A stretch of 21,461 nt of DNA, from positions 1-21,461 of IMG/VR virus record IMGVR_UViG_3300010883_000598; one strand, given 5' to 3'. This DNA comes from a virus. Positions 1-18,816 of the stretch are shown here, piece by piece (positions within the stretch are counted from its first letter, which is position 1; each line of letters opens with the position of its first letter). The notes under the pieces were generated by a model. It searched no databases. It was given only the letters and a program-made list of their open reading frames with translations, and had not been told where the DNA came from. Position numbers and translations under genes: made by a program.

Positions 1-616
1 ATAGATTAGCAGAATCAACTAACTCACCGTCAGTTCCTGCATATACTATTCTTGTAGGAGTTAAATCTTCAACATTTAATGAACCAACTTCTGCCTGACC
101 TGTAACATCTATACCTTGTAAGAATGCACCGTTGGCAGCAGTGAATAATCCGTTTATTGTTAGTACGGTAAGACCTTCGATCTCTGTTGTTGTTTCGCCT
201 AATGTAAGAGATGTTGTACCGAGTGTAATATCAGCAGAGGAAATAGTAGAAGAATTTGCGGTAAAGTTTAAAGGATTAAACTGAGTATTTTGAAATAATG
301 TTACGTGGCCAAATTCATCAAGACCAATATTTCGAGGAAAGGATAGATTACCATTTACTGTACTAACTTCAGAGGATGTGTTAGCGTGACCTATTACAAC
401 GTTTGCGGCTTGATCATAAACCGATTGTGTAATGACAATACCATTAGCACTTTCTATTTGCTGAACATAATTGCCTATCGTGTCTATACCAAGAACGACG
501 GAATCTGGAACAATTTGCGGTTTTCGTTCTGCTGGAGCTACAATTGAAGTAGTTGACCCTTCCTTTGGAACGGCCTTAATAGATCGACCGCCGCCGACCT
601 TAACCTTTATTGACAC
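1..616 (-). CDS. Putative virion structural / fibre protein, 5' part only (runs off left edge)
   Basis: The frame is open from a GTG at 614-616 to the window edge, about 205 codons. The GTG follows directly on the TAA (617-619) of the upstream gene in the same frame, so no earlier start exists. It is preceded by a strong Shine-Dalgarno GGAGGT with a 7-nt spacer. The protein begins VSIKVKVGGGRSIKAV (initiator V read as Met). It continues with beta-rich, Thr/Ser/Asn-rich segments such as 'SADITLGTTSLTLGE' and 'LFTAANGAFLQGIDVTG', the composition seen in phage fibre and baseplate-decorating proteins. I recognise no catalytic motif. Position at the end of a fibre gene cluster and the composition suggest another tail-associated structural protein. 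The function is inferred and the C-terminus is not visible. Confidence 0.75.
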   Translation of the reverse strand, partial: MSIKVKVGGGRSIKAVPKEGSTTSIVAPAERKPQIVPDSVVLGIDTIGNYVQQIESANGIVITQSVYDQAANVVIGHANTSSEVSTVNGNLSFPRNIGLDEFGHVTLFQNTQFNPLNFTANSSTISSADITLGTTSLTLGETTTEIEGLTVLTINGLFTAANGAFLQGIDVTGQAEVGSLNVEDLTPTRIVYAGTDGELVDSANL

Positions 617-958
617 TTACGAAACCTCCGTAACAGTATCGACTACGAATGCTAAGCCTTCAACTATTTTAGATCTCTCTCCTGTTTGTTTTTGCATGAT
701 TACATCATATTGGTATTTTCCAGGCTTTATCGAGTCTGTCTGCGTATCAGTTAAAACAAGAGTAATATCGTTGTTAGAAGTTTCAATAGTAAAGTTTACG
801 ATACTCGTCGAGTCAGAATACACCTTTTTGATGCCTGAATAGAAGTTGTACACAGCGATTTCAGAAGCAGAATAATCAGTACCAACCTCATTGAAAAGTT
901 CAATGGTGGTTCTAAAATCACAGCCTTTATCGATGTATATATTTGCTCTTGATGCCAT
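617..958 (-). CDS. Conserved phage structural-type protein, 113 aa (Ig/BppU-N-like by eye)
   Basis: ATG at 956-958, TAA at 617-619. The protein begins MASRANIYIDKGCDFRTTIE and has alternating beta-strand patterns, including 'TLVLTDTQTDSIKPGKYQYDV' and a closing 'IVEGLAFVVD'. I know the same plan (short 'RANIYIDKG' start, a 'PGKYxYDV' turn, an 'EG' strand near the end) from small hypothetical proteins in the tail modules of T4-like cyanophages. It also resembles the N-terminal beta-sandwich domains that plug baseplate or fibre proteins together. An AAGG sits 10 nt before the start, and a late-promoter-like 11-mer lies 38 nt upstream. The next gene starts directly after its stop codon. The fold and role are inferred; the reading frame is secure. 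Confidence 0.8.
   Translation of the reverse strand: MASRANIYIDKGCDFRTTIELFNEVGTDYSASEIAVYNFYSGIKKVYSDSTSIVNFTIETSNNDITLVLTDTQTDSIKPGKYQYDVIMQKQTGERSKIVEGLAFVVDTVTEVS
624..629 (-). promoter_or_regulatory. Strong Shine-Dalgarno for GTG-started gene
   Basis: On the minus strand GGAGGT lies 7 nt upstream of the GTG at 614-616, inside the last codons of the 113-aa gene. It is one of the best ribosome binding sites in the window. It supports GTG as the true start and independent initiation, rather than simple readthrough from the preceding gene. Confidence 0.75.
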
Positions 959-996
959 TAGAGATAAACCTTTATTTTAATATCTTACATTATCTA

Positions 997-1007
997 TATT
1001 ATTTATT
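997..1007 (-). promoter_or_regulatory. Candidate T4-type late promoter (AATAAATAATA)
   Basis: The 56-nt gap between the 149-aa and 113-aa genes reads GCGAATAAATAATATAGATAA on the minus strand. It contains AATAAATA, one base from the T4 late core TATAAATA. The same 11-mer recurs in the other two sizeable gaps of the window (7143-7153 and 18839-18849). It lies 38 nt upstream of the 113-aa start codon. It is a candidate only, because the gap is AT-rich and near-matches occur inside genes. Confidence 0.5.
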
Positions 1008-1014
1008 CGCTTTA

Positions 1015-1464
1015 TTACCAGTCCGTTTCCAATATAATAACTTCTGGAGTCTGATTTAGCGCTCTTGCCATAGATAGACGAGTATTTCCTGCAACAAGTT
1101 GATATTCATTCCCTGTCTGATCAGGAGAATGTAATATTATAGGACATTCAACTCTTCCATTAAAACCGTTAATCATACCTTCGCCTATAAACTGATTAGC
1201 AATTCTACTTATGTTTCGTCTTACACCATCTCTTCTTAAATTTCTAAAGATGCTATCTACTGTTTTTACTTCCCAACTGCTAGTATTTTGCAGGTTTCTC
1301 CACATTGAGTCTCTAAGCTTTTGCGGCCGAGCATTATAAAATAAACCTTCTAAATATCTTAACTGATCTTGTACAGCTTGTGGGTCATTACCTACAAATT
1401 GTCTTGTTATGCGCTCAAACTCAGTGCGCTCATCTCTGAACTCGCCCTTATAATATCTAACCAC
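1015..1464 (-). CDS. 149-aa protein with ParB-like C-terminal motif, downstream of collagen-like fibre
   Basis: The start is GTG at 1462-1464. A stop (1483-1485) lies just upstream in frame and no other start codon falls between them. GGAAG precedes the GTG by about 6 nt. Only one nucleotide separates it from the stop of the 1882-aa fibre gene, so translation is probably coupled. The N-terminal two thirds is charged and helical (many Arg/Glu). The C-terminus reads 'CPIILHSPDQTGNEYQLVAGNTRLSMARAL...VIILETDW'. The 'YxLVAGNTRLxxARAL' stretch resembles the G-x-R-R/L-x-x-A segment of ParB-like (ParB/Srx fold) domains, which occur as small phage proteins. The usual upstream part of a ParB N-terminal domain is not obvious. 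Position alone, directly after a fibre gene as T4 gp38 follows gp37, would suggest a fibre assembly factor, but the sequence does not look like gp38. The function is uncertain. Confidence 0.75.
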   Translation of the reverse strand: MVRYYKGEFRDERTEFERITRQFVGNDPQAVQDQLRYLEGLFYNARPQKLRDSMWRNLQNTSSWEVKTVDSIFRNLRRDGVRRNISRIANQFIGEGMINGFNGRVECPIILHSPDQTGNEYQLVAGNTRLSMARALNQTPEVIILETDW

Positions 1465-1465
1465 A

Positions 1466-4400: not shown

Positions 4401-7114
4401 ATATCAATGAAGTTATCGTCTCGGTTATCAATGTACATTGCAGTACCAGATGATAACGTAGCGTTATTAATTCTTAATTTACCAGTACCTGGGTCACTAT
4501 TTAATGTTGAACTATCGTAAGTATAATCAAAGGTTACACCACCGAATGAACCAGATGTTCCTTGTAAACCTAAAGTACCTTGTGGTCCTTGGATACCTTG
4601 AGTACCAGCACCTGTTAAACCTTGTAAGCCTTGAATACCCTGTGTGCCTTGAGCACCCTGAATACCTGCTGGGCCACGAGGAACGAATGTAATTAGAGTA
4701 GTTGGTCCGTGTACCGCGTTAACAGAAGTCTGCCAGTTAGTAACGTTACCATCAACATAATTAACATCCCAGTAACCGTAATTCTTTGAACCGCTGTCCC
4801 ATGTCCAACCAGTAATTTCGTATATTAACCAATGATGTCCAGCCGGGCCAGAACCATCGTCGTAATTACCTTCTTGTATTTTTAGATAACCTTTAACTGT
4901 ACCTGGTTGACCAGCAATAAAATCAAAGAAATCGTCTACTTGTTCTGCGAACTGATCAACAGGAATATCATCAATTGTAATTAATGTTGCAGCTGTTGGG
5001 TTAGCATTATTGAATTTGAAATTGTTTGTGCCAGGGTCAGTACCACCAAGTGTGTTATTAACAAAGTTCCATGGGAATGTTAATCCACCATATTGTCCTT
5101 GTTCGCCTTGTAAGCCTTGCAACCCTTGAATACCAGTTGTTCCTTGAACACCCTGAGTACCTTGTCCACCAGTACCACCCTGTAATCCCTGAATACCCTG
5201 TAGTCCTTGAGAACCTGTTATCCCTTGGGTACCTTGAGTACCTTGAATTGATTCGCCTTGAACACCCTGTAAACCCTGAAGGCCTTGGAATCCTTGGATA
5301 CCTTTTTCGCCTTGAATACCCTGAGTACCTTGGAAACCTAGTTGGCCTTGAACACCTTGAACACCCTGGATACCTTGTAATCCACGATCGCCATTTCTTG
5401 AGAATGTGACTCTTAAATTTGTAGAATTAGAAAATGCAGTTGCACCATTTAAACGTGTAACATCACATTGCCAATAACCAGTTTTATCTGTGATAAGATC
5501 AATTCTGAAAAGTGCTTGTTCAGCATAATTAGCAGAATTAACTACTCTAATATAACCTTTAGGTGAGCCTGTTAGAGCATCTAATTCAGTAAGTAAGCCA
5601 TCCATAACATTGACAGCGTTTGCTTCTTCGTCATCAATCCATAGTTTTAAGTTAGCAGATGAGAAGTTTGTAGAACTGAACCTTAAGTTACCAGAGCCTG
5701 GATCTGCATCATCAGTAGCAATACCGTAAGTATATTCGTATGAAATACCACCGAAGTCACCAGCTGAACCTTGTAAACCTTGTGGTCCTTGTAGGCCTTG
5801 AACACCCTGAGGTCCAACTTGACCTTGTGTACCTTGAACTCCTTGTAGGCCTTGAACACCCTGTATACCAGTTGTGCCTTGAACACCCTGTGGTCCTACA
5901 CGACCTTGAACACCTTGAGTACCTTGTAAGCCTTGAGGTCCTTGTGGTCCTTGAAGGCCTTGAACACCTCGATCACCAGAAACATCGAAAGCAACTATCA
6001 ATGGGTAACTAATAAAGGTACCTGGATTACCAGAATCTTCTATAACAAAATGTTCTTTAGTAGCAGAACCAGATAAGAATGTTACATCTAATTCCCAATA
6101 AGTACCACCAATATCTTCAACAATATTTTGTACTGAGAAAATTGCGTATCGTGATGGCTCATCGCGCTTTGTTACTTTAACATAAGCTTTATTAACAGAT
6201 GATGAACTAGCAATATATTGATATAGACCATCTAAGTTATTATTAAACGTGTCATCATCATTAATCCAAATCTTAGTAACACCAGTAAATGTTGTGTTTG
6301 TTGCTGGTGAATTAAAGGACATAAACCCGCCCGATGGAGCAGGAGATTCAGTTATTTGATTACCAAGTGAGTATTGAACTATTGCGCCAGAGTCATCACC
6401 ATTAAAGCCCTGCATTCCTTGAATACCAGTATCGCCCTGGATACCAGTTGTGCCTTGAATACCTTGAGGTCCTGCACGACCTTGCAAACCTTGAATACCA
6501 GTTTCGCCTTGAACACCTTGCACACCCTGTGGGCCACGATATCCTTGGATACCTTGAATACCTAAGTTACCTTGAACACCTTGTAAACCCTGAATACCTT
6601 TTGGACCTTGGAAACCACGATATCCTCGTTCGCCCTGGATACCTTCGTTACCAATTGTTCCTTGAACACCCTGAGGACCATTAGATCCTTGTAAACCTTG
6701 AACACCTCTAAATGATCCAATATTTACCCAAGTCGTGCCGTCGTAAATCCAAAGCTCGTCATCAGCGTCATCAATAACACCATCACCAACTGTAGCAGAT
6801 GGGAATGCGGTATTAAGAGTCGCTTGAGGATCGCCACCACTATCAACATCAGCAACTGCACCGATTATTGTAAAGCCGGGACCATAGTCGCCTTGAACAC
6901 CTTGGCCGCCTTGAATACCAGTTGTACCTTGAAGACCTTGAGGTCCAGTTCCTAACGCAAGCCAGTTTGTGCCGTCGGAGTATCTTAGCTCTCCATTATC
7001 AGCATAAACCACAGAACCTTCGAATGGTACTGGATCAAGAGTAATAGGAAAGGCTTGCGGTACGCCATGGCCGATTAATAGATTCTTTCCTGTGAGTGTT
7101 CCAAATTTGGACAT
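1466..7114 (-). CDS. Giant collagen-like tail fibre with four globular inserts and C-terminal S74 chaperone, 1882 aa
   Basis: ATG at 7112-7114 with GGAG 11 nt upstream; TAA at 1466-1468. Domain order by residue: 1-56 N-terminal cap, including 'LRYSDGTNWLALG', a likely virion attachment part. 57-75 is a short Gly-X-Y run. 76-136 is a small insert with 'LWIYDGTTWVNIG'. Collagen-like Gly-X-Y runs occupy 137-240, 381-453, 577-674, 814-856 and a long 977-1455. Four related globular domains lie between them (about 241-380, 454-576, 675-812, 857-976). 1456-1760 is a beta-rich, Gly/Ser/Thr-rich stalk. 1766-1882 is a peptidase S74 / intramolecular chaperone domain beginning SDESLKENV, with Ser1766 and Lys1771 as the expected self-cleavage pair. 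Triplets are mostly G-[I/L/V/T/P]-Q, that is Gln rather than Pro in the third position. In S74 proteins the chaperone trimerises the fibre and is then released. The protein is probably a long trimeric receptor-binding fibre. Confidence 0.9.
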   Translation of the reverse strand: MSKFGTLTGKNLLIGHGVPQAFPITLDPVPFEGSVVYADNGELRYSDGTNWLALGTGPQGLQGTTGIQGGQGVQGDYGPGFTIIGAVADVDSGGDPQATLNTAFPSATVGDGVIDDADDELWIYDGTTWVNIGSFRGVQGLQGSNGPQGVQGTIGNEGIQGERGYRGFQGPKGIQGLQGVQGNLGIQGIQGYRGPQGVQGVQGETGIQGLQGRAGPQGIQGTTGIQGDTGIQGMQGFNGDDSGAIVQYSLGNQITESPAPSGGFMSFNSPATNTTFTGVTKIWINDDDTFNNNLDGLYQYIASSSSVNKAYVKVTKRDEPSRYAIFSVQNIVEDIGGTYWELDVTFLSGSATKEHFVIEDSGNPGTFISYPLIVAFDVSGDRGVQGLQGPQGPQGLQGTQGVQGRVGPQGVQGTTGIQGVQGLQGVQGTQGQVGPQGVQGLQGPQGLQGSAGDFGGISYEYTYGIATDDADPGSGNLRFSSTNFSSANLKLWIDDEEANAVNVMDGLLTELDALTGSPKGYIRVVNSANYAEQALFRIDLITDKTGYWQCDVTRLNGATAFSNSTNLRVTFSRNGDRGLQGIQGVQGVQGQLGFQGTQGIQGEKGIQGFQGLQGLQGVQGESIQGTQGTQGITGSQGLQGIQGLQGGTGGQGTQGVQGTTGIQGLQGLQGEQGQYGGLTFPWNFVNNTLGGTDPGTNNFKFNNANPTAATLITIDDIPVDQFAEQVDDFFDFIAGQPGTVKGYLKIQEGNYDDGSGPAGHHWLIYEITGWTWDSGSKNYGYWDVNYVDGNVTNWQTSVNAVHGPTTLITFVPRGPAGIQGAQGTQGIQGLQGLTGAGTQGIQGPQGTLGLQGTSGSFGGVTFDYTYDSSTLNSDPGTGKLRINNATLSSGTAMYIDNRDDNFIDIATFLSTIDDSTSPIKGHFKITKVGSAEIFHLYTISSAVAIGGGYYNVGCAHVDGNGALANDDDITITFARTGDAGSTGSTGAQGTQGPQGTQGFQGLQGLTGAGAQGSTGSTGSQGVQGLQGSLGVGADGVQGIQGLQGVQGNLGIQGTQGLTGAGADGAQGTSGAQGVQGTQGVQGTTGSGTQGADGIGAQGIQGIAGAGGIGGQGTQGIQGVQGSDGPQGLQGGDGGEGQPGGPGSQGIQGTTGSGTQGIQGPQGADGFGFQGSSGQGTQGPQGLTGSQGLGGSGPQGTQGVQGSTGNDGPQGTTGDGIQGLQGPQGVSGVVGVGTQGLQGIQGTLGTQGLQGITGLGVQGPLGFQGAQGNEGAGSAGPQGPQGDLGIQGTQGPFGFQGTIGSTSAQGDTGIQGNQGTQGFDGGGGFQGIQGNLGTQGPQGLDGGTGGSGFQGADGIQGPGGFQGGTGVTGEGVQGPRGSQGLVGAGGQGPSGPQGPAGSEVGPQGSAGFQGSLGNAGPQGTIGGSGVGIQGLQGTGGNNGAQGPFGPQGVQGTAGGSTGLDIASLHTSGLQGTAMFITMVQGGSGVRPLYGTTSPNPGGEQNFFYTANDDELTLENLKIDGSATLNGSTITSWPSGGSAITVQDEGSSLATAASTINFVGAGVVASGTSATKTITIGGGGDANQNTFSNVAVSGQSTVAADTTTDTLTLVAGSNVTITTDTTTDSVTINSSGGGGGGYSTITAVGTNADLQLVFHTGGTALQADASNGLTFNPSSDELKVGGDGTFGGDGTAASWINTGSVASGIKSYMTGGTAAGVPIGRLSSEWSGSTWNVMNWTPGGVAISGWLTTSDYIVCSQDVDAVNFNSTSDESLKENVETIENALSKVINMRGVNFNWKENSQPGTGVIAQEIETVLPHVVTENNEGIKHVQYGNIVGTLIEAIKEQQRQIEALQEISHAPIEAGGATELLGLINDIESRLNLLEE
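1469..1819 (-). other. S74 intramolecular chaperone domain of the collagen-like fibre (predicted cleavage before Ser1766)
   Basis: The last 117 residues begin S-D-E-S-L-K. Known S74/ICA domains (phage endosialidase, MYRF) use a Ser and a Lys five residues later as the catalytic dyad and cut just before the Ser; this spacing is kept exactly. Downstream 'GVIAQEIETVLPHVV' matches the family core motif. A C-terminal heptad-like helix ('IVGTLIEAIKEQQRQIEALQEI') fits the trimeric coiled coil of the chaperone. Confidence 0.85.
2750..4186 (-). repeat. Long collagen-like Gly-X-Y segment (about 480 residues) with frequent Gly-X-Gly breaks
   Basis: This part of the fibre gene encodes residues 977-1455. 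At DNA level it is a dense array of degenerate 9-nt units (plus strand 'ccttg[a/t]...acc'). At protein level it is mostly G-x-Q triplets. Roughly every 15-40 residues the phase is broken by a Gly-X-Gly step (for example 'GTTGSGTQG', 'GADGFGFQG', 'GITGLGVQG'). The shorter collagen runs nearer the N-terminus have almost no such breaks. The array explains the many spurious open frames on the opposite strand. Confidence 0.9.
4187..6394 (-). repeat. Four paralogous globular domains separated by collagen-like spacers
   Basis: The domains are at 5975-6394, 5387-5755, 4679-5092 and 4187-4546 (120-140 residues each). Three begin with a 'GGxxxxYxY' or 'GGLTFPW' strand, then 'DPGxxxxxx[F/I]', then '[L/M/I]xI[D/N]D'. 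Next comes a helix ('LLTELDALTG', 'VDDFFDFIAG', 'IATFLSTIDD'), 'xxKGY[I/L]+[I/V]', an '[L/I]F/Y.I' strand, a 'GYW/Y..[D/G]V' strand and a closing 'ITFxRxGDxG' that leads straight into collagen triplets. The first copy is more divergent ('KIWINDD', 'GTYWELDVTFLSG'). They look like duplicated beta-rich knobs. I know similar domains from marine phage collagen-like proteins, but have no name for the family. Confidence 0.8.
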
Positions 7115-7142
7115 TTTACTTTAGTCTCCGTTGATCATATTA

Positions 7143-7153
7143 TATTATTTATT
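7143..7153 (-). promoter_or_regulatory. Candidate T4-type late promoter (AATAAATAATA)
   Basis: The 43-nt gap before the 1882-aa fibre gene reads GACAATAAATAATATAATATG on the minus strand, 28 nt upstream of the ATG. The 11-mer is identical to those at 997-1007 and 18839-18849. Its AATAAATA core differs by one base from the T4 late promoter TATAAATA. Confidence 0.5.
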
Positions 7154-7157
7154 GTCT

Positions 7158-7583
7158 TTAGACAACGTCATCTTCCTCAGATTGGCCTAATGTGAACGAT
7201 AATGTAGCATGAATTGCTAAGTCCGTATCACCTATTACTTCTAGAGTGTCTCCACTCTTTAAGAACTGGCCGTTTAGCGGGATTGCAGTGGTTTCGTAAG
7301 CTGGTATTGGCATGTTTCTGATAACATAAAATTCAGCATTAAGATCTTCGCGGTGAAATCTCACGTCGACTCTTGCTGTAGATGCTGTTGTGTTACAGAA
7401 TATTAATGGCGAAATTATTTCACCAACGCCTGGTTCAACAGTTGTACTACCACCAAATACTAATTCCGGAACCTCGTATTGAGGTACTTCAACAAGTACT
7501 TGCCAGTTGGTAGATACGACCTTTTGAATCGCTACCGGTTTTGCGTCCGGTGCCTGCGATGTTGTGATTGTAGTGATTGGCAT
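7158..7583 (-). CDS. Probable virion structural protein, 141 aa
   Basis: ATG at 7581-7583, preceded by AGGA with a 7-nt spacer; TAA at 7158-7160. The gap from the stop of the 3739-aa gene is 13 nt, too short for its own promoter, so the two are probably co-transcribed. The protein begins MPITTITTSQAPDAKPVAIQ and is nearly all predicted beta strand. Visible segments are 'VLVEVPQYEVPELVFG', 'ISPLIFCNTTASTARVDVRF', 'MPIPAYETTAIPLNGQFLKSGDTLEV' and 'AIHATLSFTLGQSEED'. The pattern of a short Ig-like or jelly-roll sandwich with 'LNGQFLxSGDxLEV' is familiar to me from hypothetical structural proteins in marine T4-like phages. It may decorate or attach the neighbouring fibre. No enzymatic motif is seen. 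Confidence 0.8.
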   Translation of the reverse strand: MPITTITTSQAPDAKPVAIQKVVSTNWQVLVEVPQYEVPELVFGGSTTVEPGVGEIISPLIFCNTTASTARVDVRFHREDLNAEFYVIRNMPIPAYETTAIPLNGQFLKSGDTLEVIGDTDLAIHATLSFTLGQSEEDDVV

Positions 7584-7596
7584 ATCTTTATCCTAT

Positions 7597-10500
7597 TTAA
7601 ATTGATGCTCTACTATTAGAAGCTCTTCTTGCGAGTTTTCTAACAGAAGATGTAAATGGTCTACCTTCAATCCTTCCGGTTCGACCGTTAATTCTTAATC
7701 CTCTTGCGAAGTACTGGTTATTCAATTCATCAGCACCTGACCATCGGATTCTACCACCGTCTTCATTAAGTACCGAAGCGATTGCTGATATAGCAGAACC
7801 AAGGTTTCTAAAGTTAAGCGGTAACGCGTTTCTATTAACACCAGCCGATGCACCGTTGAACTGATGGGCAATGGATTCAACCAACGAACCGAATATCAAT
7901 GTATTAGGACGTAGTATGTTATCTTTAACACAGTCATTAAATAACCCTTCGATCATTAATGAGTGCTGTGAGTTAGGTGAGTAAGTAGCAACAATGTAAT
8001 CTCTCATCTTATCCCAAGCACCAGTAAATGCATCCAGAAGATCAGTATTGTTCGCACCATCAGATACCCAAGTTGTGCCATTCCAGTAATATATATTACC
8101 AGCGTAATAGTTGGTAGCGTAATTAGTAGCAACTATATATGAATGATTAAGTTTCATTCCGGTGATCGCTGATAGATCTGATAATTGAGTAACTGAACCT
8201 TGATACTTCAAGTCTTGTTTTGTTGGATTAAACACTGGGAATACATGACTACCTTTGAAGTCAAAGAATGCAGCAGTATATGTCATTGTTGCATTCGAAC
8301 TACCAAAGTCTGCGTATGTTGGAGCAGCAACATCAGGGTCATACTTCTGATATTTAAAGTCATTACTAACCGCTGTTAATAAGTTTTTAGCATCACGTCT
8401 TGTTAAGTTAAGATCGATAAACTTGTATGTCTTTCCAACATAACTAACTGTCTGGAATTGTAAAGACTCTCTTTGTTGGCCTAAGATGTTTTTAGCATCT
8501 GTAAACACAGCATTTAGATAAGTTGGCTCTTCAAGTAATGGCAATTGCTTAGTATCATTGTACAATTGAGTCTTGTAGAAGATATTTGCTAATCCTTCAA
8601 CCTTAACACTCTCAATAGTTGTTGCAACCTCTCCATTCTGAACCTGGCCAGCGTATTCACCAATTACTATATCTTTACAGATTTTTCCAAGATGTCTGTA
8701 AGACTTGGCAGTTGGTATTCTTTGATCTTCAGGTAATCTATATACTTGGTTCCAGAAGTAGAAATCCGCGTTCCATCTTGAAGCAGAGTTACCGCCGAAG
8801 TTCAAGTCATAACTGAATGCATCAAGTAAGAATCCTGTGTCTCTCTTACACTTAGCTTTGTTATAATCAAGTACATCAAAGTTATTATTTATGAAGGTTG
8901 TTACATCACTTGCAAGCTCTTCAGTACTATCGTCGATTGTTACGGCAGCTGTTGTTAGTTCAGCGTCGATCCATCCAGTATTACCTGGCTCAATCGCCGG
9001 TAATTCATCAGTATCATCAGCTCTTATAACTCCTTCGATATAAGCAATTAAATCGTGAGCTCTAGTGCCTTCTGTTGCTGTTGCAGCAGTACCCAAAGTA
9101 TTCTGAGGAGTGATTGTGTATAGTGTATTTGAAACATCAGTTTCTTGTACTACTCCATCAACAAGTGTACCAAGAATATTCAATATATCTGAATATTGGT
9201 TTCTTGTGTCAACTGGTAATACTGAAACACCGTTTTCGAAGTAGATACCAGCAGCTTGTCTTGTTGCGAAGTTTCCGCCATACTGAACATCGTGTGATAT
9301 AGCATCTACAATATATCCAATATCTCTTCTGCATTTAGCTGCAGGGAAACTCAATCCACTGTGTACACTGCTTAGATATGTAATTACTGCTTCAGCTATT
9401 GTATCTCTTTGATTATCAACTAAGTCTTTAGCTACTTTATAGTTATCTGCTACCCAAGCTTCTGATGGGAATATCATCTCTGGTATTGTTGATACGATTT
9501 CAATATTATCATCAACAGCGTTAGCAACTATTTGAACAAGGTCTCTTGCAGTTTTACATGTATTTGGATTAGCTCCAATTACTGCTTTGTTCTGTACTTG
9601 AGTTGTTTGATATGATTCAACACCACTCCAGTAGTCATACTGAGTTAGAATATCGCCCGTGTAGAATACTGCTTCTTTAGGGAATTCAGTTGTTGTAATA
9701 TCTACTGCACCAACAACATGCTCTACTATTTTAGACATGTGTAAGAATGCATCTCTTGTACCCATTCTTTGTTCAAGTTTTAATCCAGTATTTACAGCAT
9801 TCTCAAAATACATTCCTGCAGTTTGTACTGTTGCACTGTTTCCGCCGTATTGGATATCGTGAGATACAGCATCGATAATATAACCAGTATCTCTTCTGCA
9901 CTTAGTTTCACTAAATGGTAAGACATCGTAGAATGTAGATACATACTCGATTAAGCCTTCAGCAACAGTTGTTTTAATATTATCTATTGCGTTAAATGCA
10001 GCTATTTGAGCATCACTGTATGGTGCAGCAGCATCAGGTAAGTCATATGCCGGAGCCATTAACATGCCGTTGTCTTCGATAATTTGTGCTGATATATCAA
10101 ATAAATCTTCACCAGCAGCGGCAAGTAGAACTCCACCAGATGCACCACTGAAATCTTGAGTTTCACTATTACCAGAAGACTTAAGTGCGCCTAGATTTAT
10201 GTCTTGTATAATTAAATCTGCACAATCACCAAGATGTCTGAATGCAGCATATGAAGGTTCACGCTGATTTATAGGTAATCCAACATTTACACCATTCTCA
10301 AAGTATAGTCTAATAAAGTTGAGAGTACCAAAGTTACCACCGTGTTGTAGATCAAACGATATAGCATCGATTAAGTAACCTGTATCTCTTTGACACTTAG
10401 CAGTATCATAAGTATGTGAAGGTCTGTTAGCAGTAAGCCAAGCTATCATTTCAGCCTGTAAGAATACCTTGTTATTTTGTAATTGTGATCTACCATTAAT

Positions 10501-13500
10501 TTTATTAACATTAAGTGCAGTTGAAGTATAATTAATTACATCAGCAGCACTTCGGCCCTTAGTCATAATATCTATGATTTCGTCAAATGCTTCCTCAGTC
10601 TTAGTTTGAAGCGCTTGATTAGTTACAGCAGCAACTGCTTTAGCTTTGGCGAATTCAATACCTTTAACTGTTTCTATTAATTGTTCGTTAATTACTTTAT
10701 TAGTTCCAGGTGTTTCAATTCTATATGCAAGTCCGTTATGAACCGCGTTATAGTTTGAACCGGTTAACACGTCAACTTTAACTCCGTCAAGAAGTAAAGC
10801 AACATCACGCTTACACTTATCGCCATCGAATGTGTAATAACGATCTTTAATATACCCTTGAACTTCTTCAATGATAAAGTCTCTGTTACGTTGTAATTGC
10901 TTTCTTGCTAATGTTCTGTTAGAATCAAACGAAGCTTTAACAAGTGTTGGTAATTCATCATCTTCAATATTTGTATAATCAATGAATTTAGCAACAGTGT
11001 CAATTAAGTCGTGAACTGTAGTACCTGTAGCAGTGTTAACAGCAGTACCATCAGTATTTTGATAAGGACCAGTACTGATAGCATCGGCTAGCGCTGATAT
11101 AAATGTATGTGGTTGTTGACCTGAGCCACCATTTCCAACATTCATCGTAATTGTGTTTGCACCGACTTCAGTAATTGTTACTGGTTCACTATAATATGGA
11201 TGATGTTTCTGCGGTGAAGTATGACTTTGTACACCAGCTCCCATATCACAACTGAATGTAAATCCTTCAGGTGCTAACCAAATCTTATCTTTAACTTTAA
11301 GTGTGTGAGTACCGATCGTTGCAGTAAATACTCCAGTCGCTGGATTATATAAAGCGTTAGTTGGAGTAAATTTAGTATAAGTTGTTGTGTGAGCAACTTC
11401 TTTAACTACAGTTTCAGCAACGTCTGCAAGTCGTTTGAATGCAGCTTGTATTGGTTCACGTTGTTCACGAGGAAGAACATTAATCTTTTCTCTTAAACCA
11501 GATACGTTAGCAGTATCTTCGTAATCGGATAGTGTTTTAAACTGACCTCTTACTTTAATTGGCAATACGTTAGTTGATCGCTGTTGCTCGTAATCAGCAC
11601 TTTCAGAAGTAAATCTCTTAAAGTAATAATCGATAGCTTCTAATGTATTTTCGTTTCCGCCGTATTCAATATCACGAGATACAGCGTCTAGAATAATTCC
11701 AACATCACGAGTACATTTTTCTCTAACAATTGGTAATCCGTTATGCTCATCTCTTAGATATTCGATAACAGACTCTGTTAGATTTTCTGTTAAGCCGTCG
11801 ATTGCATTAACTGCAGGTTCCATAGCAACTTCAACTGAACCTTCGTTATGGTGCGGAAGATTATCTAAATTGTTATCTCTAATAATTTGAGTAGTTACAT
11901 TAACACCAGCTCTTGCAGCTTCACCAACTTCAACACCAGCATCTGTTAGTGTAACATCTTGAGAAACAGCGTTACCAGTTGTAGGAGTAACTGCTTGGTC
12001 TCTTACTATCTTGTAACAAACATTTGCAAGGTGCTCCCAAGTCTTAGCAGTAGGTAATTTCTGATCTTCAGGCAATGTACTGATTGCATTTTCGTAATAA
12101 AGTCTTGAGAAGTTAACAGAAGCAGCATTTGAGCCGTACTTAACATCCCATACTAGAGCATCAATCATGTAGCCTGTGTCTCTTTCGCACTTAGCAACAC
12201 TATAATTTAACGATGGGAATTGATCAGCAACGTAAGCAGTAACTTCAGCTTGTAAGAATGCTCTATTGTTAATTAATGCAGAAGCTCCAGTTGTATGGTT
12301 AACACTTACTGCAGCATCATCACCGTAAGTAAGAGCGTTAGCATTACCAGAACCGTTTGACATGATATCAACAATTTCATCGAATGAAGCATTAGCTCTT
12401 GTAAGTGCAGTTCCTGTTACTGAAGGATCAGCCGCAACTTTTGCTTTTAGATAGTTGATCGCTCCAACTGTTTGTGTAAGTTGATCGTAGATAACTTTAT
12501 TAGCACCGACAGTTCCAATCCTATATCCTAATCCCATAAACACTGCGTGGTAATTAGAATTAGTAGCAAGGTCTCGTCTAACTGCGTCTAAGATAAATCC
12601 TGAATCTCTTGAACACTTAGCACCATTAAATACAAAGTATTGTGTATCTAGATACGCTTGAACATCAGCCGCAAGGAATGCTTTGTTATTCTGTAGTTGT
12701 TCTCTTGCATATTGACCTTGACCGTTCGTAGATACATGAGTTACTGCATGCTTTTCACAAGATACAAATGTGTGAGTACCACCCGAACTAGCACCTAAAT
12801 TAACAGTAAATGTGTTTGTTGTAACTGCAGTAATCTGGAATGGTTTTCTATAAGTAACATCACCTTTTCTTGGGTATGAATGCTGTGTTGCATCGCCGTC
12901 AAGTGAACAAGTATACGTGAAACTGTATGGTGCAAACTCAACCCAATCGTCTGTTGTTAAACCGTGATTTGGAATAGTTACTACGCTCTCACCAGTACTA
13001 GGTACAAATGTTGCAGTGGTAGGTGTGAAGTGTTTAATCTGTGCAGCAGGGTCAGTAAATACTAGGGCGTCTGAATCAATTGCTCCAACGTCTGCTCTAA
13101 CAAATGTATGAGTTCCACCAACAGCAGGTCCTACATTCATTGATATTGAGTCAGAAGTTACCGAGTCAATTTCAATTGGAGTCATGTAAGTTTTAGTGTG
13201 GTGAGCTTCAGGAATTGCATGTTCAGTAGCGTTTCCGTCAAGAGCACATGTAAATACAATAGAGCCAGTTTTAATTTGTACGTAATCACCAGCTTCTAAA
13301 TTATGTCTGCCGATTGTTGCAACAAATACACCAGTGCCACCATCGTATGTAGCGTTTGTTGGTGTGTATGTTGAAATGTATTTAGCAGTCTTAATATTAT
13401 CTGTAGTAGCTGATATAAATGTATGTGGTGATAGATCAGAAGATGTACCAACATTAACAGTAATAGTTGTTCCAGTTGTTGAAGCAATTACTACAGGTTT

Positions 13501-16500
13501 CTTATATGCAGGATGCTGTCTTTCGCCTTGTATTGCATTTGGAAGAGCAGATACAAAGGTGTGTGCTCCACCGCCATTTGCACTAACACCAACGTTAGCT
13601 GTAATGGTTGTAGAATCAACTGCAGTCAATGTAATCTTTTTCTTCCAGAAAGTATGGTGTGCTTCAGGTACCGGATGATTTGTTGCATTACCGTCTATAG
13701 CACAAGTAAATACGATACTCTCTGGTGCAACTTCAATCTGATCACCAGCTTTCAGTTTATGAGCACCGATAGTTGCCGTGAATACACCTGTTGCTGGGTC
13801 GTAGGTAGCATTAGTAGGTGTGAAATTAGTAATCGTTGTTGCTGGATATGTATAATTAGTTACGTTGCCATCAGTATCACAAGTAAATGTCATGCTGTTA
13901 GCAGCAATATTAATTTTATCGCCAGGTTGTAAATCATGAGCACCAACTGTTATAACTGTTAAACCAGTGCCTGGGTTATAAGTAGCGTTAGTTGTTGTAT
14001 ATGTTTTACCACTGCTCTGTAGAATACTTGTAATCTTATCGATAGCTTCGTTACTTCTAAATCCTGAAGCATTATCGTCGATACTTACCATGTGAGTAAT
14101 TGAGTTATCTAAAGCAGATACAAATGTATGAGGATAAGCAGCACTGTAACCAACAAACATTGTAATAGTTGTTGATGTTACTGACTCAACAGAACATGGG
14201 TGGTTATAGAATGCGTGATGAGCCATTGGGACAGCATCGTTCTGTACTCCACTTCCTGTATCACAACTGAATGTTATACCACCTGATAAGAACTTAACAT
14301 AGTCACCAGGGTGTAATCCGTGCTTACCGATAGTCGCTGAGAACATTCCGCTTTCAGGATTGTAAGTAGCAGTTGTTGGTGTAAAGCTTAGACCAACTCC
14401 TTTAGCAGGAACAATTGCGTTTGCTACGGCTGATACGAAGGTGTGCGGATATTGACCTGAGCCACCATCTCCAACATTCATTGTAATTGTTGTATCAGTT
14501 ACACCAGTAATTGGGCAAGGTGTTTGCCAATATGGGTGATGTGATTGTGGAGAAGTATGATTAACTTCACCAGCGCCCATATCACAACTCATTGTAATAC
14601 CGTTATCAGCAAGCATTATATAATCACCAACTGCCATACCGTGATTACCGATTGTTGCTGTGAATACACCTGTTGCTGGATCGTAGACAACGTCGGTTAC
14701 AGTAAATCCAGATTCAACATTATTTAAATTAATTCTTGATTTGATTTCATTCATTGCACCGATAGTTTCTACTAACTGATCGTTAATAACATTATCTGCA
14801 AGAGTAGTACCTGAACGATAAGCAATACCAGTTTGGATTGCATTATAGTTAGAACCAGTTAAGATATCTCTTTCAACTGCTGGTAATATGTATTTTTGTG
14901 TATCTCTACGACATTTCTTAGAGTCATATCTGAAATATGTTTCATCAATATAACCTTCAACATAATCTGCCAAGAATGTTTTATTAGCTTGTAGTTGTTT
15001 ACGTGCATTTTTATTATCAGCAGCAATTGAAGCATTCTCGCTCCATCTAATATCAGCACCTAAGATTGATACAGATTTTGATAAAGCTTCAACAAATCTA
15101 TGTTCATCAACTATTGCCGATACACCAACATTAATTGTAATCGATGTTTCGTTAGCACCTAATACTTCAAGAGGAGCTCCTGCAGCAGGGTCAGTCGCTC
15201 TTGGATATGCGTGTCTTGTTAAGTAATTATCTCTTGAACAAGTAAATACAAAACCGCCAGTTCTCAATAGTACTTTTCTGCCAGTACTTAAACCGTGACT
15301 TGAGCTAATCGCTTGTGGAGCAGCCGAAACAAATGTGTGAACTTGTTGACCATTAGCACCACCGTAACCAACATTCATTGTTATAACATTACCAGACACG
15401 TTAGTAATTTTAACTGGCTTGTTATAATATGGGTGATGAGCTTCAGGAACTGCGTGGTTTTGTACACCTGAACCAGCATTACAACTAAATGTAATTGACG
15501 CAGGTTTAAATCTGATATAATCACCAACTACTAATTCGTGAGTACCAATCGTTGCAGTCATTACACCGGATGCAGGGTTATAAGTAGCATTAGAAACATT
15601 AAACTTCTTGCTTGTGTTCAATGTTATAACCATCTTACCAGATGCGGCGTCGTAAGTTGCCTTAGTTGGTGTGTACGCTGTATTTTTGTTTTCGAGTATT
15701 TCTAATATTTCATCAAACGCAGCATCTGTTCTTGCAGTAGCTTCATAAGAATCACCGTCAAGTAACTCGTTAGTTTGATCTTTAAGTCTCTTATATGCAG
15801 CAACAGTTTCGTTATTTTGACTTTCAATAACAGTTTTTGCGGCAGCCATATAGTATGCTTCACCAGCAGTAACTGCGTTATAGTTTGTATCAAACAACAT
15901 GTCGTTTTTAACAGCAGGTAAGATGTAATCAGATACATCACGTCTACATGCTTTACTATCGTATGCGTAAAACTCTTCGTTATTTTCAATCCAATCAATA
16001 AGAGTATCTGTGATAAACTGTCTGTTGTCTTGTAATAATTCTCTAGCAGCAACCTGTGGTTTGGTTGTATCTTGCCAGATAATTGGATTCATGTTTTCTT
16101 CGCCGTACTTAACGACGTTGTACATCTCTTGGAAACTTGTATCTACTCTTGGAATAATTTCGTTATTAGCATTAGCAAATATAGTATTAATACGACTCTG
16201 TAGGAATACATTAGCACCTATTGTTGCTTCTAGCTGATCGCCTACAACTTTAGATGATATTGGAGATCTATAAGTAATACCTGCTAGTCTACTCCAGTAG
16301 TTAGAATCAGTTGCTACGTCATAACCGACACCGTCTATTATAATACCAGTATCACGTTCGCATTTAACTGAGTCGTAACCAGTATAACCTAAACCGCCTG
16401 AAGCGACTGAGTCTGTAAGGTATTCAGTCATGTCTGTAATAATGTCGTCAGAATTATCCATTAAGGAAGATCCGAATACAGTATTACCTACAATAGTTGC

Positions 16501-18816
16501 AGTAGTATTTTTAGGTTGGAAGAACTGTGATGTTCCTTTTGCTCTCATTGAGATATCGCCGAACTGAGTACCACTGTTGTTCAGCGTCATCTGTCCACCG
16601 TTTAGGGCATAGAATGCACATCGTACGAAGATTGATAGAGAACCGATACCGTTAATACCAGCACCATCCCTTGCAACATAACCTAAACCGTTTTGAGTAC
16701 GAGGTGTGAAACCAAAACATAAGACGTAAGTATATAGTGAGTCTGGATCAAGTACTCTTCTGTCTGCAAGTACACAACCACCGCCTCGACCAACTTCTCT
16801 GTTAGGGAAGTCATCAATACCAAGAGATTCAATTGTACCAGCACCACCAGATTCAGATGTTATTGTATCACCAATTCCGAAACCAATTCCGTTTTTCAGA
16901 TTACGAACTCTAATTGTTCGGTTAACTGCTATATCAGCAGTGTATCCTTTTGCTGTATCTAATGTATCGTCCCAAGTTAGGAAACCAACAGCACCAGATG
17001 AGAATTTAATTTCGTCATCAAGAGCCCATGCTCCTGTTAAACCAGCTGCTAATACAAACGTTTGACCAAGGTCAGCAAGTGTACCTTTAGTATTGTAAGG
17101 GTTAAGAGGTGGCTCAACATCTTGACGTAAGAAGTTAGATAACTGAGTACTATCTCTTAAGTAAGGTGAACGTAATAGTTTAGCACCAGGTCGATAAGCA
17201 ATCGCGAATCCACCTTCTGGGAAGTCAAAGTTATCAACTTTAAAGTTCTGATAACCGAATCCTTGGGCATAACAACCAGAACCAACTAAGATTCCGTTAT
17301 TGTTTTCAAATCCAGGAAGCATTTCAATAACAGTTGCGTACTGACCTGCAGTTGAAGTTATTGAACAGTCATCTGGTAATTGAAGATTACCCTTTGTATA
17401 ATAAGTACCTGGACCAACAGAAATGTGAACCGCGTTATTAATTGCGTTACGATTTAATTCACCACCTGCTTTTTCTAAACAAAGTTCAAATGCTCTTTCC
17501 AGTGTTCTTACTGGTTGCATCATTGTACCTGGGTTTGTATCATCACCAGAACCAGCGTCTACATTAACTTTAAGTGCTTGAGCTGTTTTCTTAGAAACTT
17601 CATCAAAGAGTTGGTTGAAATTAATCTGTTCAGTATCACCAGTTCTTTCGTTACGAATAGCAAAGTATGACTCGTCGTCCATTGGCGCATCGAACTCTTG
17701 CGTCAAATTCATGTCGAAGTCTACAAGATTCGTATTTGTTATTGTTCCGCCGGTAAAGGTTGAACCAGATACCGAGCCATTTTCAAAGGTTGAATTATTA
17801 GAAGATAAACCATCTGCAGAGGAGCTTCTGATTGTCATATCAGTTGCTACAACATTCTGCATTGTGCCTTGGAAAGCAGTATTGGATATTGTACCATCAG
17901 TGAAAACAGAATCATCAATAGTTGAATTTGTTAACGTTACGTTATTACCAGTACCATTGTTAAATTCAGAACTTGTAATAATTGTGTTATTAACAGTGCT
18001 GTCATTAAGCTGTGATGAAGTAATTACGAAGTTATTTGCAGTACCATTTAATAGAGCAGTATCTGTAAATATGTTATTTGCGCCAGTACCATCTGAAAAA
18101 TCTGAACCGGTTAAATCTACATTAACACCAGTTGAGTCTAGCAATGTACCAGAAGTAAATGACGAACTTGTTATAATTACATTGTTTGCAGTACTATCAG
18201 CAACCGCACCAGATGTAAACGTAGAAGAAGTCATTGTTACATTGTTTGCAGTACTATCAGTGATTGATGAATCATCAATAATAGAATTTGTTAATGTGAC
18301 ATTGTTACCTGTGCCGTTATTAAACTCAGAATTTGTTATTACGACTGCATTGGCAGTTCCGTTATTAAACTCGGAATTAGTTATGATAACATTATTGGCA
18401 GTACTATTTGTAATTGTACCATCGTCGAACGATGAATTAGCAATAGTTAGGCGTTCACCAGTAGAAGCTACTAACGAACCGTCAGTAAACGAAGATGAAG
18501 TAATGACAATATTGTTAGCATCTGAATTTGTAATAACAGTAGTATCAATAGTACCACGAATCCAATCAGTATCTTCAATATTTGAGTTATCAATTGTAAC
18601 ATTATCGAGAGTACTGTCTGACATCTCAACGCCAGAGATCGTTCCGCCTGTAATAGTGATGCGATCAAATATCTCGTACTGAATAGCTTGTACAAGTTCT
18701 TTTCTTGAGATATTCTTGGTACCATCGTCACCTTGAACAAGGTTAACAATTACAAGTAGGTCTTCCGACCTGGTATTTGCACCGGTAATGGAACCTAGTT
18801 CTGAAATCTTTGCCAT
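7597..18816 (-). CDS. Giant modular tail-fibre / adhesin-like structural protein, 3739 aa
   Basis: ATG at 18814-18816, preceded by GGGA at 10 nt; TAA at 7597-7599. Residues 1-60 form an N-terminal cap ('SELGSITGANTRSEDLLVIV', 'GTKNISRKELVQAIQYEIFD'), probably for attachment to the baseplate. About 60-365 is a Thr/Asn/Ser-rich pentapeptide-like beta-helix. About 415-805 is a second beta-helix-type region opening with 'VDAGSGDDTNPG' and containing 'ALNGGQMTLNNSGTQFGDI'. From about 815 to 3400 two module families alternate. One is beta-rich ('SATIGKHGLHPGDYVKF', 'TFSC', 'HHPYY', 'PHTFVSA'), about nine copies. The other is helical ('KCxRDxGxIxDAxxxD'), eleven copies. About 3540-3739 is a conserved-looking end ('NDCVKDNILRPNTLIFGS', 'GRIRWSGADELNNQYF') with a basic tail. 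T4 gp37 has about 1026 residues, so this is exceptionally long. Similar modules occur in marine T4-like phage structural proteins. Its role in host recognition is inferred. Confidence 0.9.
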   Translation of the reverse strand: MAKISELGSITGANTRSEDLLVIVNLVQGDDGTKNISRKELVQAIQYEIFDRITITGGTISGVEMSDSTLDNVTIDNSNIEDTDWIRGTIDTTVITNSDANNIVITSSSFTDGSLVASTGERLTIANSSFDDGTITNSTANNVIITNSEFNNGTANAVVITNSEFNNGTGNNVTLTNSIIDDSSITDSTANNVTMTSSTFTSGAVADSTANNVIITSSSFTSGTLLDSTGVNVDLTGSDFSDGTGANNIFTDTALLNGTANNFVITSSQLNDSTVNNTIITSSEFNNGTGNNVTLTNSTIDDSVFTDGTISNTAFQGTMQNVVATDMTIRSSSADGLSSNNSTFENGSVSGSTFTGGTITNTNLVDFDMNLTQEFDAPMDDESYFAIRNERTGDTEQINFNQLFDEVSKKTAQALKVNVDAGSGDDTNPGTMMQPVRTLERAFELCLEKAGGELNRNAINNAVHISVGPGTYYTKGNLQLPDDCSITSTAGQYATVIEMLPGFENNNGILVGSGCYAQGFGYQNFKVDNFDFPEGGFAIAYRPGAKLLRSPYLRDSTQLSNFLRQDVEPPLNPYNTKGTLADLGQTFVLAAGLTGAWALDDEIKFSSGAVGFLTWDDTLDTAKGYTADIAVNRTIRVRNLKNGIGFGIGDTITSESGGAGTIESLGIDDFPNREVGRGGGCVLADRRVLDPDSLYTYVLCFGFTPRTQNGLGYVARDGAGINGIGSLSIFVRCAFYALNGGQMTLNNSGTQFGDISMRAKGTSQFFQPKNTTATIVGNTVFGSSLMDNSDDIITDMTEYLTDSVASGGLGYTGYDSVKCERDTGIIIDGVGYDVATDSNYWSRLAGITYRSPISSKVVGDQLEATIGANVFLQSRINTIFANANNEIIPRVDTSFQEMYNVVKYGEENMNPIIWQDTTKPQVAARELLQDNRQFITDTLIDWIENNEEFYAYDSKACRRDVSDYILPAVKNDMLFDTNYNAVTAGEAYYMAAAKTVIESQNNETVAAYKRLKDQTNELLDGDSYEATARTDAAFDEILEILENKNTAYTPTKATYDAASGKMVITLNTSKKFNVSNATYNPASGVMTATIGTHELVVGDYIRFKPASITFSCNAGSGVQNHAVPEAHHPYYNKPVKITNVSGNVITMNVGYGGANGQQVHTFVSAAPQAISSSHGLSTGRKVLLRTGGFVFTCSRDNYLTRHAYPRATDPAAGAPLEVLGANETSITINVGVSAIVDEHRFVEALSKSVSILGADIRWSENASIAADNKNARKQLQANKTFLADYVEGYIDETYFRYDSKKCRRDTQKYILPAVERDILTGSNYNAIQTGIAYRSGTTLADNVINDQLVETIGAMNEIKSRINLNNVESGFTVTDVVYDPATGVFTATIGNHGMAVGDYIMLADNGITMSCDMGAGEVNHTSPQSHHPYWQTPCPITGVTDTTITMNVGDGGSGQYPHTFVSAVANAIVPAKGVGLSFTPTTATYNPESGMFSATIGKHGLHPGDYVKFLSGGITFSCDTGSGVQNDAVPMAHHAFYNHPCSVESVTSTTITMFVGYSAAYPHTFVSALDNSITHMVSIDDNASGFRSNEAIDKITSILQSSGKTYTTTNATYNPGTGLTVITVGAHDLQPGDKINIAANSMTFTCDTDGNVTNYTYPATTITNFTPTNATYDPATGVFTATIGAHKLKAGDQIEVAPESIVFTCAIDGNATNHPVPEAHHTFWKKKITLTAVDSTTITANVGVSANGGGAHTFVSALPNAIQGERQHPAYKKPVVIASTTGTTITVNVGTSSDLSPHTFISATTDNIKTAKYISTYTPTNATYDGGTGVFVATIGRHNLEAGDYVQIKTGSIVFTCALDGNATEHAIPEAHHTKTYMTPIEIDSVTSDSISMNVGPAVGGTHTFVRADVGAIDSDALVFTDPAAQIKHFTPTTATFVPSTGESVVTIPNHGLTTDDWVEFAPYSFTYTCSLDGDATQHSYPRKGDVTYRKPFQITAVTTNTFTVNLGASSGGTHTFVSCEKHAVTHVSTNGQGQYAREQLQNNKAFLAADVQAYLDTQYFVFNGAKCSRDSGFILDAVRRDLATNSNYHAVFMGLGYRIGTVGANKVIYDQLTQTVGAINYLKAKVAADPSVTGTALTRANASFDEIVDIMSNGSGNANALTYGDDAAVSVNHTTGASALINNRAFLQAEVTAYVADQFPSLNYSVAKCERDTGYMIDALVWDVKYGSNAASVNFSRLYYENAISTLPEDQKLPTAKTWEHLANVCYKIVRDQAVTPTTGNAVSQDVTLTDAGVEVGEAARAGVNVTTQIIRDNNLDNLPHHNEGSVEVAMEPAVNAIDGLTENLTESVIEYLRDEHNGLPIVREKCTRDVGIILDAVSRDIEYGGNENTLEAIDYYFKRFTSESADYEQQRSTNVLPIKVRGQFKTLSDYEDTANVSGLREKINVLPREQREPIQAAFKRLADVAETVVKEVAHTTTYTKFTPTNALYNPATGVFTATIGTHTLKVKDKIWLAPEGFTFSCDMGAGVQSHTSPQKHHPYYSEPVTITEVGANTITMNVGNGGSGQQPHTFISALADAISTGPYQNTDGTAVNTATGTTVHDLIDTVAKFIDYTNIEDDELPTLVKASFDSNRTLARKQLQRNRDFIIEEVQGYIKDRYYTFDGDKCKRDVALLLDGVKVDVLTGSNYNAVHNGLAYRIETPGTNKVINEQLIETVKGIEFAKAKAVAAVTNQALQTKTEEAFDEIIDIMTKGRSAADVINYTSTALNVNKINGRSQLQNNKVFLQAEMIAWLTANRPSHTYDTAKCQRDTGYLIDAISFDLQHGGNFGTLNFIRLYFENGVNVGLPINQREPSYAAFRHLGDCADLIIQDINLGALKSSGNSETQDFSGASGGVLLAAAGEDLFDISAQIIEDNGMLMAPAYDLPDAAAPYSDAQIAAFNAIDNIKTTVAEGLIEYVSTFYDVLPFSETKCRRDTGYIIDAVSHDIQYGGNSATVQTAGMYFENAVNTGLKLEQRMGTRDAFLHMSKIVEHVVGAVDITTTEFPKEAVFYTGDILTQYDYWSGVESYQTTQVQNKAVIGANPNTCKTARDLVQIVANAVDDNIEIVSTIPEMIFPSEAWVADNYKVAKDLVDNQRDTIAEAVITYLSSVHSGLSFPAAKCRRDIGYIVDAISHDVQYGGNFATRQAAGIYFENGVSVLPVDTRNQYSDILNILGTLVDGVVQETDVSNTLYTITPQNTLGTAATATEGTRAHDLIAYIEGVIRADDTDELPAIEPGNTGWIDAELTTAAVTIDDSTEELASDVTTFINNNFDVLDYNKAKCKRDTGFLLDAFSYDLNFGGNSASRWNADFYFWNQVYRLPEDQRIPTAKSYRHLGKICKDIVIGEYAGQVQNGEVATTIESVKVEGLANIFYKTQLYNDTKQLPLLEEPTYLNAVFTDAKNILGQQRESLQFQTVSYVGKTYKFIDLNLTRRDAKNLLTAVSNDFKYQKYDPDVAAPTYADFGSSNATMTYTAAFFDFKGSHVFPVFNPTKQDLKYQGSVTQLSDLSAITGMKLNHSYIVATNYATNYYAGNIYYWNGTTWVSDGANNTDLLDAFTGAWDKMRDYIVATYSPNSQHSLMIEGLFNDCVKDNILRPNTLIFGSLVESIAHQFNGASAGVNRNALPLNFRNLGSAISAIASVLNEDGGRIRWSGADELNNQYFARGLRINGRTGRIEGRPFTSSVRKLARRASNSRASI
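12740..15605 (-). repeat. Tandem beta-rich 'TATIG-GDY-TFSC-HHPYY-HTFVSA' modules in the giant protein
   Basis: Copies of about 95-100 residues run roughly at 1072-1160, 1161-1250 (divergent), 1370-1468, 1478-1572, a split copy 1606-1664 plus 1763-1808, 1665-1762, 1816-1913 and 1925-2024. One further outlying copy lies near 2480-2580 (DNA about 11080-11380). The pattern is '[FY]TPTxATYxPxTG', 'xATIGxHxLxxGDxI', 'xITF[ST]Cxx[DG]G', 'HxxPxxHHPYYxxP', 'ITxVxxxTITMNVG' and 'xHTFVSAxxxAI'. The alternating pattern predicts a beta sandwich per module. Each full copy has one Cys, and most have a His pair. Confidence 0.85.
13531..13824 (-). repeat. Complete beta-module nested inside another copy
   Basis: These 294 nt (98 codons, in frame) encode residues 1665-1762, from 'FTPTNATYDPATGVF' to 'SALPNAI', which are the normal borders of a module. 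The preceding copy stops halfway at 'NVTNYTYPATTITN'. The sequence after the insert ('QGERQHPAYKKPVVI', 'TITVNVG', 'SPHTFISATTDNI') supplies precisely the missing second half. A whole module therefore sits inside another. Confidence 0.75.
17745..18640 (-). repeat. Pentapeptide-like beta-helix repeats at the N-terminus of the giant protein
   Basis: Residues about 60-358 repeat every 5 and, more strictly, every 20 residues (60 nt), for example 'STANNVTMTSSTFTSGAVAD' followed by 'STANNVIITSSSFTSGTLLD'. A hydrophobic residue (I/L/V/M/F) recurs every fifth position among Thr, Ser, Asn, Asp and Gly. This suggests a square right-handed beta-helix of the pentapeptide-repeat type. At DNA level short direct repeats are visible, such as 'attgtttgcagtactatcag' at 18181 and again at 18241. 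Confidence 0.8.

Follow-up and report, generated by a model that had tools for sequence, protein, structure and literature searches.

Our study reports on a protein module of phage tails that is inserted into copies of itself. The window, the whole 21,461-base stretch analysed here (positions 1 to 21,461 of virus record IMGVR_UViG_3300010883_000598), comes from a marine virus and has a cassette of tail genes on its minus strand, and a 3739-amino-acid (aa) giant protein of this cassette contains a series of ~98-aa all-beta modules with nine predicted strands, two of which are split by a complete module of their own kind. The window itself has one level of insertion only, with two hosts and one insert each; in relatives (L029, L181, L168 and the phages P-SSM3 and S-P4) inserts hold further inserts, to a depth of four or five levels, and we refer to these assemblies as dolls. 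On balance we think it probable that this is a self-nesting beta module with four insertion loops, and that its dolls would form stiff, possibly branching tail arms built from probable sugar-binding-type barrels.

All positions of module pieces refer to a 97-position profile made from the window's own modules. A preliminary description of the sequence had noted one of the two nests, here called nest 2, and its residues and coordinates are correct: the copy at aa 1606-1664 ends in YTYPATTITN, a full module follows at aa 1665-1762, and aa 1763-1810, beginning QGERQHPAYKKPVVI, complete the broken copy, with a single open frame kept through all the pieces. Against the profile, aa 1606-1660 match positions 1-55, aa 1665-1762 match positions 1-97 with a score of 124 bits, and aa 1765-1808 match positions 54-97; the two host halves joined without the insert make one complete module of 105 residues that scores 98 bits. 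The three-piece pattern is no product of chance: it recurs in 31 of 32 proteins (the window and L001-L031), the sequence of L030 ending at its contig end, and the C-half motif was found in 34 distinct contexts among all loci, each time directly after the close of a complete module. Since the nest is filled in all 34 contexts, it is old, and older than the second nest described below. The proposal that this is domain-in-domain nesting rather than tandem growth is upheld, the halves being complementary and standing together in every relative seen; no independent half-modules were found at this site in the 34 contexts, and although the paralogue affinities of the halves differ somewhat, they indicate no other subtype. 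An anomalous composition of the insert was considered and rejected (guanine-plus-cytosine (GC) content 0.43 in the insert, 0.35 in the host parts and 0.38-0.43 in other modules), and the positive GC skew of window 13001-14000, checked module by module, gave no clear signal.

The same protein contains a second nest, missed in the preliminary description, at aa 1048-1249 (window 15070-15675) and in another loop than nest 2. In this nest 1 the host (aa 1048-1068 and 1172-1249) is split at about profile position 20 and encloses a complete module at 1072-1170. Its site is filled in 19 of the 32 proteins and occupied by a single uninterrupted module in 12; alignment A2 shows five relatives (L008, L012, L014, L018 and L026) passing directly from SVITLG to GHGL where the others have about 105 residues more. 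A tree of 86 modules joins the nest 1 host to the modules that stand uninterrupted in L012 and L026 (support 100/100) and places the insert apart from that host, among the ordinary tandem modules of its own protein (support 100/98). Sequence identity within the window is 54-61% between the insert and the modules at 1371, 1478 and 2483, as against 29% between insert and host. From the empty site and the clustering of the insert with tandem modules it follows that modules move as units, and this part of the preliminary description stands for nest 1, for which relatives lacking the insert could be produced; for nest 2 the same search through 34 contexts yielded none.

The presence of nest 1 was mapped on a 41-row tree of the flanking protein; the insert is present in 19 rows and absent from 22. 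This distribution takes six changes, at least four of them forced by well-supported branches, and in one deep branch the insert is missing in all 16 rows; the best fit is a gain followed by losses or by exchange between phages. Within one protein the best nucleotide identity of any two modules is no higher than 0.87, so neither a recent copying event nor a junction signature came to light. The median best DNA identity to other modules of the same protein is 0.67 for nested and 0.65 for tandem modules.

The depth reached in relatives can be written in a bracket notation, in which a lower-case letter opens a host and the upper-case letter closes it (a for loop 1, b for loop 2), with F standing for an intact module. 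Residues 2824-3348 of L029 then read a F b a F A B A, four levels that are fully balanced. In 60 representatives of the 191 module-bearing proteins, non-crossing pairing takes in 350 of 410 open or closed ends; when piece order was shuffled 200 times, the mean was 199 (standard deviation 11, maximum 222). Tandem growth combined with splitting of matches by the hidden Markov model was rejected as an explanation, as splits with nothing between them had been merged before counting. In a second test intact modules were peeled away, the profile search was repeated and the rejoined modules were counted per round: 69 proteins gave 337, 113, 54, 42, 4 and 1 modules over successive rounds, and cuts shifted by 30, 45 or 60 residues produced 7-19 new modules in round 2, compared with 113. 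A stricter version recovered 109 full modules, compared with 9-13 at shifts of 30 or 45 residues. Peel rounds can overstate depth if a weak match passes late; one protein of the 69-protein set reached six rounds. Extended to 185 proteins (the 191 minus six open reading frames (ORFs) of named phages), peeling gave 1010, 336, 153, 113, 4 and 3 modules and 104 four-level dolls, numbers that are no census because the loci were obtained by nested queries and the same contigs are repeated. Four-level dolls are kept whole across 41 sequences, with a mean column identity of 80% (alignment A5). Four separate four-level dolls of ~413 aa each lie within one protein in L181 (ORF 2672-15379) and again in L168 (ORF 3-9797).

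Thirteen records of named phages, picked from the search matches, were put through the same peeling, and in 10 of them modules appeared only after peeling: over five rounds in P-SSM3 and S-P4, four in Sf-CH3, Sf-CH1b, Syn19, S-H9-2, Syn1 and metaG-MbCM1, three in P-SSM7 and two in P-SSM4. Dolls of four or five levels are carried by named cyanophages, P-SSM3, S-P4 and Syn19 among them. An assembly artefact is rejected because these named genomes show the same nesting. A hand parse of P-SSM4 aa 4202-5350 is balanced, every module being closed, and includes one host with three inserts; the three short end pieces in a row at aa 5218-5274 close three open modules. The peeling algorithm itself resolves P-SSM3, the piece-by-piece counterpart of P-SSM4, in this way. 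The protein concerned (L192, P-SSM4 57144-79082) is a ~7300-aa 'gp7 baseplate wedge initiator' with, by hand parse, an 11-module nested block. A different arrangement was seen in four named phages, where a piece matching profile 3-83 follows an end piece (81-98) after a gap of roughly twelve residues (L193 aa 3828-3933, L196 aa 4075-4177, L204 aa 4030-4135 and L203 aa 3486-3595), as if the module were circularly permuted or the host parts were separated by unrelated domains.

The four insertion loops lie at profile positions ~21-27, 55, 72 and 83, between strands 2-3, 5-6, 6-7 and 7-8 of the predicted fold, those near 72 and 83 being contributed by more distant relatives. The window uses the loop between strands 2 and 3 in nest 1 and that between strands 5 and 6 in nest 2, in keeping with the early suggestion that the split point of nest 2 is a loop. 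Window aa 1040-1814, modelled with AlphaFold2 from 41 sequences, give a mean predicted local distance difference test score (pLDDT) of 77; block means in the nest 2 part range from 75 to 93 and are mostly at least 85. A model of the four-level doll L153:7031-8290 (420 aa, 41 sequences) reaches pLDDT 92.2 and a predicted template modelling score (pTM) of 0.84; as modelled, it is a defined arrangement of all four modules, in which strands 241-252 and 349-359 cross the junction from host to insert to host unbroken. Residues 256-338 of the phi92 endosialidase align with 80 residues of this model spread over the range 1..420 (Z 8.2, 2.2 Å), and because the outermost host alone reaches both ends of the model, its two parts must form one barrel there. 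For the innermost module (249-354) the counterparts are the FCCH domain of ubiquitin E1 (Z 8.2) and residues 424-508 of the K1F endosialidase (Z 7.2, 2.2 Å), and module aa 1368-1473 of the window model aligns with phi92 (Z 8.2). The predicted module thus has a borderline similarity to the phage endosialidase beta-barrel. At the level of profiles, 3 of the 41 rows of alignment A5 match PF12195 (End_beta_barrel; best E 0.0058) and 5 match PF16190 (E1_FCCH; best E 0.0012); of the 22 rows of the window nest alignment A1, a single one matches PF16190 (E 0.14), while PF12195 is unlisted. Sequence searches against solved structures and against NCBIfam returned nothing useful.

We propose that nesting would deepen by one level when a copy of a module of the same protein family is inserted, in frame, into a loop. 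Both ends of the insert would then be tied to the host through two strands, giving a two-point joint unlike the single flexible linker between tandem beads, and with such a joint at each step a doll would be a stiff arm with both chain ends at its base; hosts with several inserts may be branch points. The beta-barrel of the K1F endosialidase has a sialic-acid site and is described as a hotspot of host discrimination (PMC12632334). This role, together with the likeness in fold, suggests that the modules are probably sugar-binding-type beta-barrels, so that dolls would act as arms projecting from the tail fibre or baseplate, spacing binding surfaces or presenting them to the host cell. Stiff projecting arms would be the most likely role. 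More tentatively, and with somewhat greater doubt than trust, we raise the idea that marine T4-like phages follow a context-free bracket grammar of fibre growth, in which one beta module with four docking loops enters copies of itself and a single chain would form stiff, branching trees of domains, whose levels phages would gain, lose and swap with one another to change host contacts.

Among the alternatives, the one that survives best accepts the nesting as real but regards it as neutral: the loops of a tolerant and abundant beta module would gather copies by recombination, without selection for arms. The repeated gain and loss of nest 1 in the 41 relatives is what neutrality would lead one to expect, as is the finding that nested modules are little closer in DNA than tandem ones; against it stand the retention of nest 2 in all 34 contexts and the conservation of whole four-level dolls, of which one protein may hold up to four. 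We regard neutrality as possible, though unlikely. Much less credible is an origin by deletion in a tandem array, in which three modules losing one C-half and one N-half would leave an N-part, a full module and a C-part without any insertion. Tandem arrays do flank both nests, and the order of pieces taken alone formally fits two deletions, but the sister state of nest 1 is a single uninterrupted host with the exact ends SVITLG and GHGL rather than three modules, host and insert of nest 1 fall in separate clades, and dolls of four or five levels would require many coordinated and always balanced deletions; we therefore give this origin very little credence. Least of all do we believe that the halves are independent sub-domains reusable in any order, since, for all that short end pieces (profile 84-98) do occur in runs such as the three in P-SSM4, the observed order is far more balanced than its shuffles, such runs come after equally long runs of opened modules in the manner of brackets (alignment A5), and cuts shifted by 30 or 45 residues seldom rejoin modules.

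Several observations weigh against a self-nesting module as we describe it. No empty nest 2 site was found among the 34 contexts, all being occupied; that nest 2, too, arose by insertion is inferred from the bracket pattern and from what is seen at nest 1. The bracket test leaves 60 of 410 piece ends unpaired, and 70 fragments remain after the peeling of the 69 proteins. Under the stricter peel, cuts shifted by 15 residues still yield 86-101 full modules against 109; a slip of this size between homologous modules hardly harms the profile, so that it is no control and shifts of at least 30 residues are needed. Fetching the loci with nested queries biases the frequencies. Three of the 13 named phages (MED4-213, S-MbCM6 and S-WAM2) have no nest by the peeling algorithm, which also finds two rounds in P-SSM4 against five in P-SSM3, although the pieces of the two match nearly one for one. 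The pTM of the whole window model is 0.34, so the placement of domains and the geometry of the joints in the window nests are not established by it. The fold alignments to endosialidases and FCCH have root-mean-square deviations of 2.2-2.6, and a Z of ~8 may reflect a common arrangement; Foldseek found no match to the four-level doll in the PDB at E <= 0.001, and no clear Pfam match of the modules to PF12195 or PF16190 was obtained, the first-member matches falling below the cut-offs shown.

Table 1. Module pieces and carrier protein in the window, with positions on the 97-position profile where assigned.
Feature	Window position	Strand	Basis
3739-aa tail-fibre-like giant virion protein, module carrier	7597..18816	-	PHROG matches
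Nest 1 host N-part, aa 1048-1071, profile 1-21	15604..15675	-	profile match, alignment A2
Nest 1 inserted complete module, aa 1072-1170	15307..15603	-	profile match; missing in L008, L012, L014, L018, L026
Nest 1 host C-part, aa 1171-1249, profile 20-97	15070..15306	-	profile match, alignment A2
Uninterrupted tandem module, aa 1371-1468	14413..14706	-	profile match
Uninterrupted tandem module, aa 1478-1573	14098..14385	-	profile match
Nest 2 host N-part, aa 1606-1664, profile 1-55	13825..14001	-	profile match
Nest 2 inserted complete module, aa 1665-1762, profile 1-97	13531..13824	-	profile match
Nest 2 host C-part, aa 1763-1810, profile 54-97	13387..13530	-	profile match
Uninterrupted tandem module, aa 1817-1913	13078..13368	-	profile match
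Uninterrupted tandem module, aa 1930-2025	12742..13029	-	profile match
Uninterrupted module, aa 2483-2580	11077..11370	-	profile match

The tail cassette comprises, besides the giant protein, a collagen-like protein of 1882 aa (1466-7114) and smaller tail-fibre genes. The giant protein matches phrog_5342 (E 1e-133), phrog_701 and phrog_18802, with E-values over the three of 1e-133, 3e-130 and 3e-78, and the classes matched are tail fibre and virion structural proteins. Its closest annotated relatives belong to T4-like cyanophages of Synechococcus and Prochlorococcus (tblastn, 256 phage records, all below 60% identity), and a scan of a bacterial and archaeal genome collection returned a single relative, L236 (NZVE01000039.1, a Rhodobacteraceae metagenome-assembled genome), possibly a binned phage contig. 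The N-terminus of the giant protein (P0001 aa 55-385, window 17660-18650) has Asn/Ser/Thr-rich pentapeptide-like repeats, with PF13599 slightly under the cut-off. Further on, at aa 2067-3337 (window 8800-12620), the helical motif KCxRDxGxxxDAxxxD occurs seven times at spacings of 142-440 aa and makes up another family of repeats, interspersed among the beta modules. The collagen-like protein has 11 Pfam collagen stretches and an S74 chaperone domain at its C-terminus, and the non-collagen domains interspersed in it look alike.

The nearest likeness in predicted fold, that of the single module to the phi92 and K1F endosialidase beta-barrels and to E1 FCCH, is borderline, and the profile scores are weak. 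The endosialidase barrel is an insert in a propeller and FCCH an insert in an adenylation domain, each a single insertion into an unrelated host domain, and we know of no self-nesting in either case. The same class of protein and the same module family are found in the large tail and baseplate proteins of the Kyanoviridae, the T4-like cyanophages (e.g. P-SSM4 'gp7', T4-GC 969, phrog_5342 and phrog_701), whose records are annotated just as virion structural, tail fibre or baseplate and leave the nested architecture unmentioned. Most big structural genes of these abundant ocean viruses carry the label 'virion structural protein'; parsed as nested brackets, what looks like an extended series of partial repeats resolves into whole domains, with the right domain borders for structure work. 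The coexistence of empty sites with one, two and four levels further offers a natural series for the study of nested-domain folding and for tests of the gain and loss of insertions.

The literature searched, which left most subscription papers outside its reach, gave no description of nested domains in phage fibres. The closest precedent is the SI3 insertion in the beta-prime subunit of cyanobacterial RNA polymerase, in which, according to published reports, one family of SBHM/HABAS domains is recursively inserted into itself (PMC11515920), the rpoC2 product of Prochlorococcus has a six-level recursive architecture (PMC13114784), and the crystal structure contains continuous and discontinuous SBHM domains (PMC10802570). 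Recursive self-insertion is therefore a known architecture, of which the phage fibres seem to show a new form: they have four sites, dolls that recur, and sites that are empty in some proteins and filled in others. Both systems insert a beta-domain family into itself, and both may place several inserts in one host. They differ in that SI3 is one site in one enzyme, whereas here many sites occur in giant fibre proteins, with a ~98-aa unit, four recurrent loops, more than one doll per protein, and sites that may be either empty or filled among close relatives. The HABAS/SBHM domains and the phage module are likened here by architecture, a shared GD motif being a lead only. The recursive self-insertion known from cyanobacterial RNA polymerase thus also occurs in the phages of cyanobacteria.

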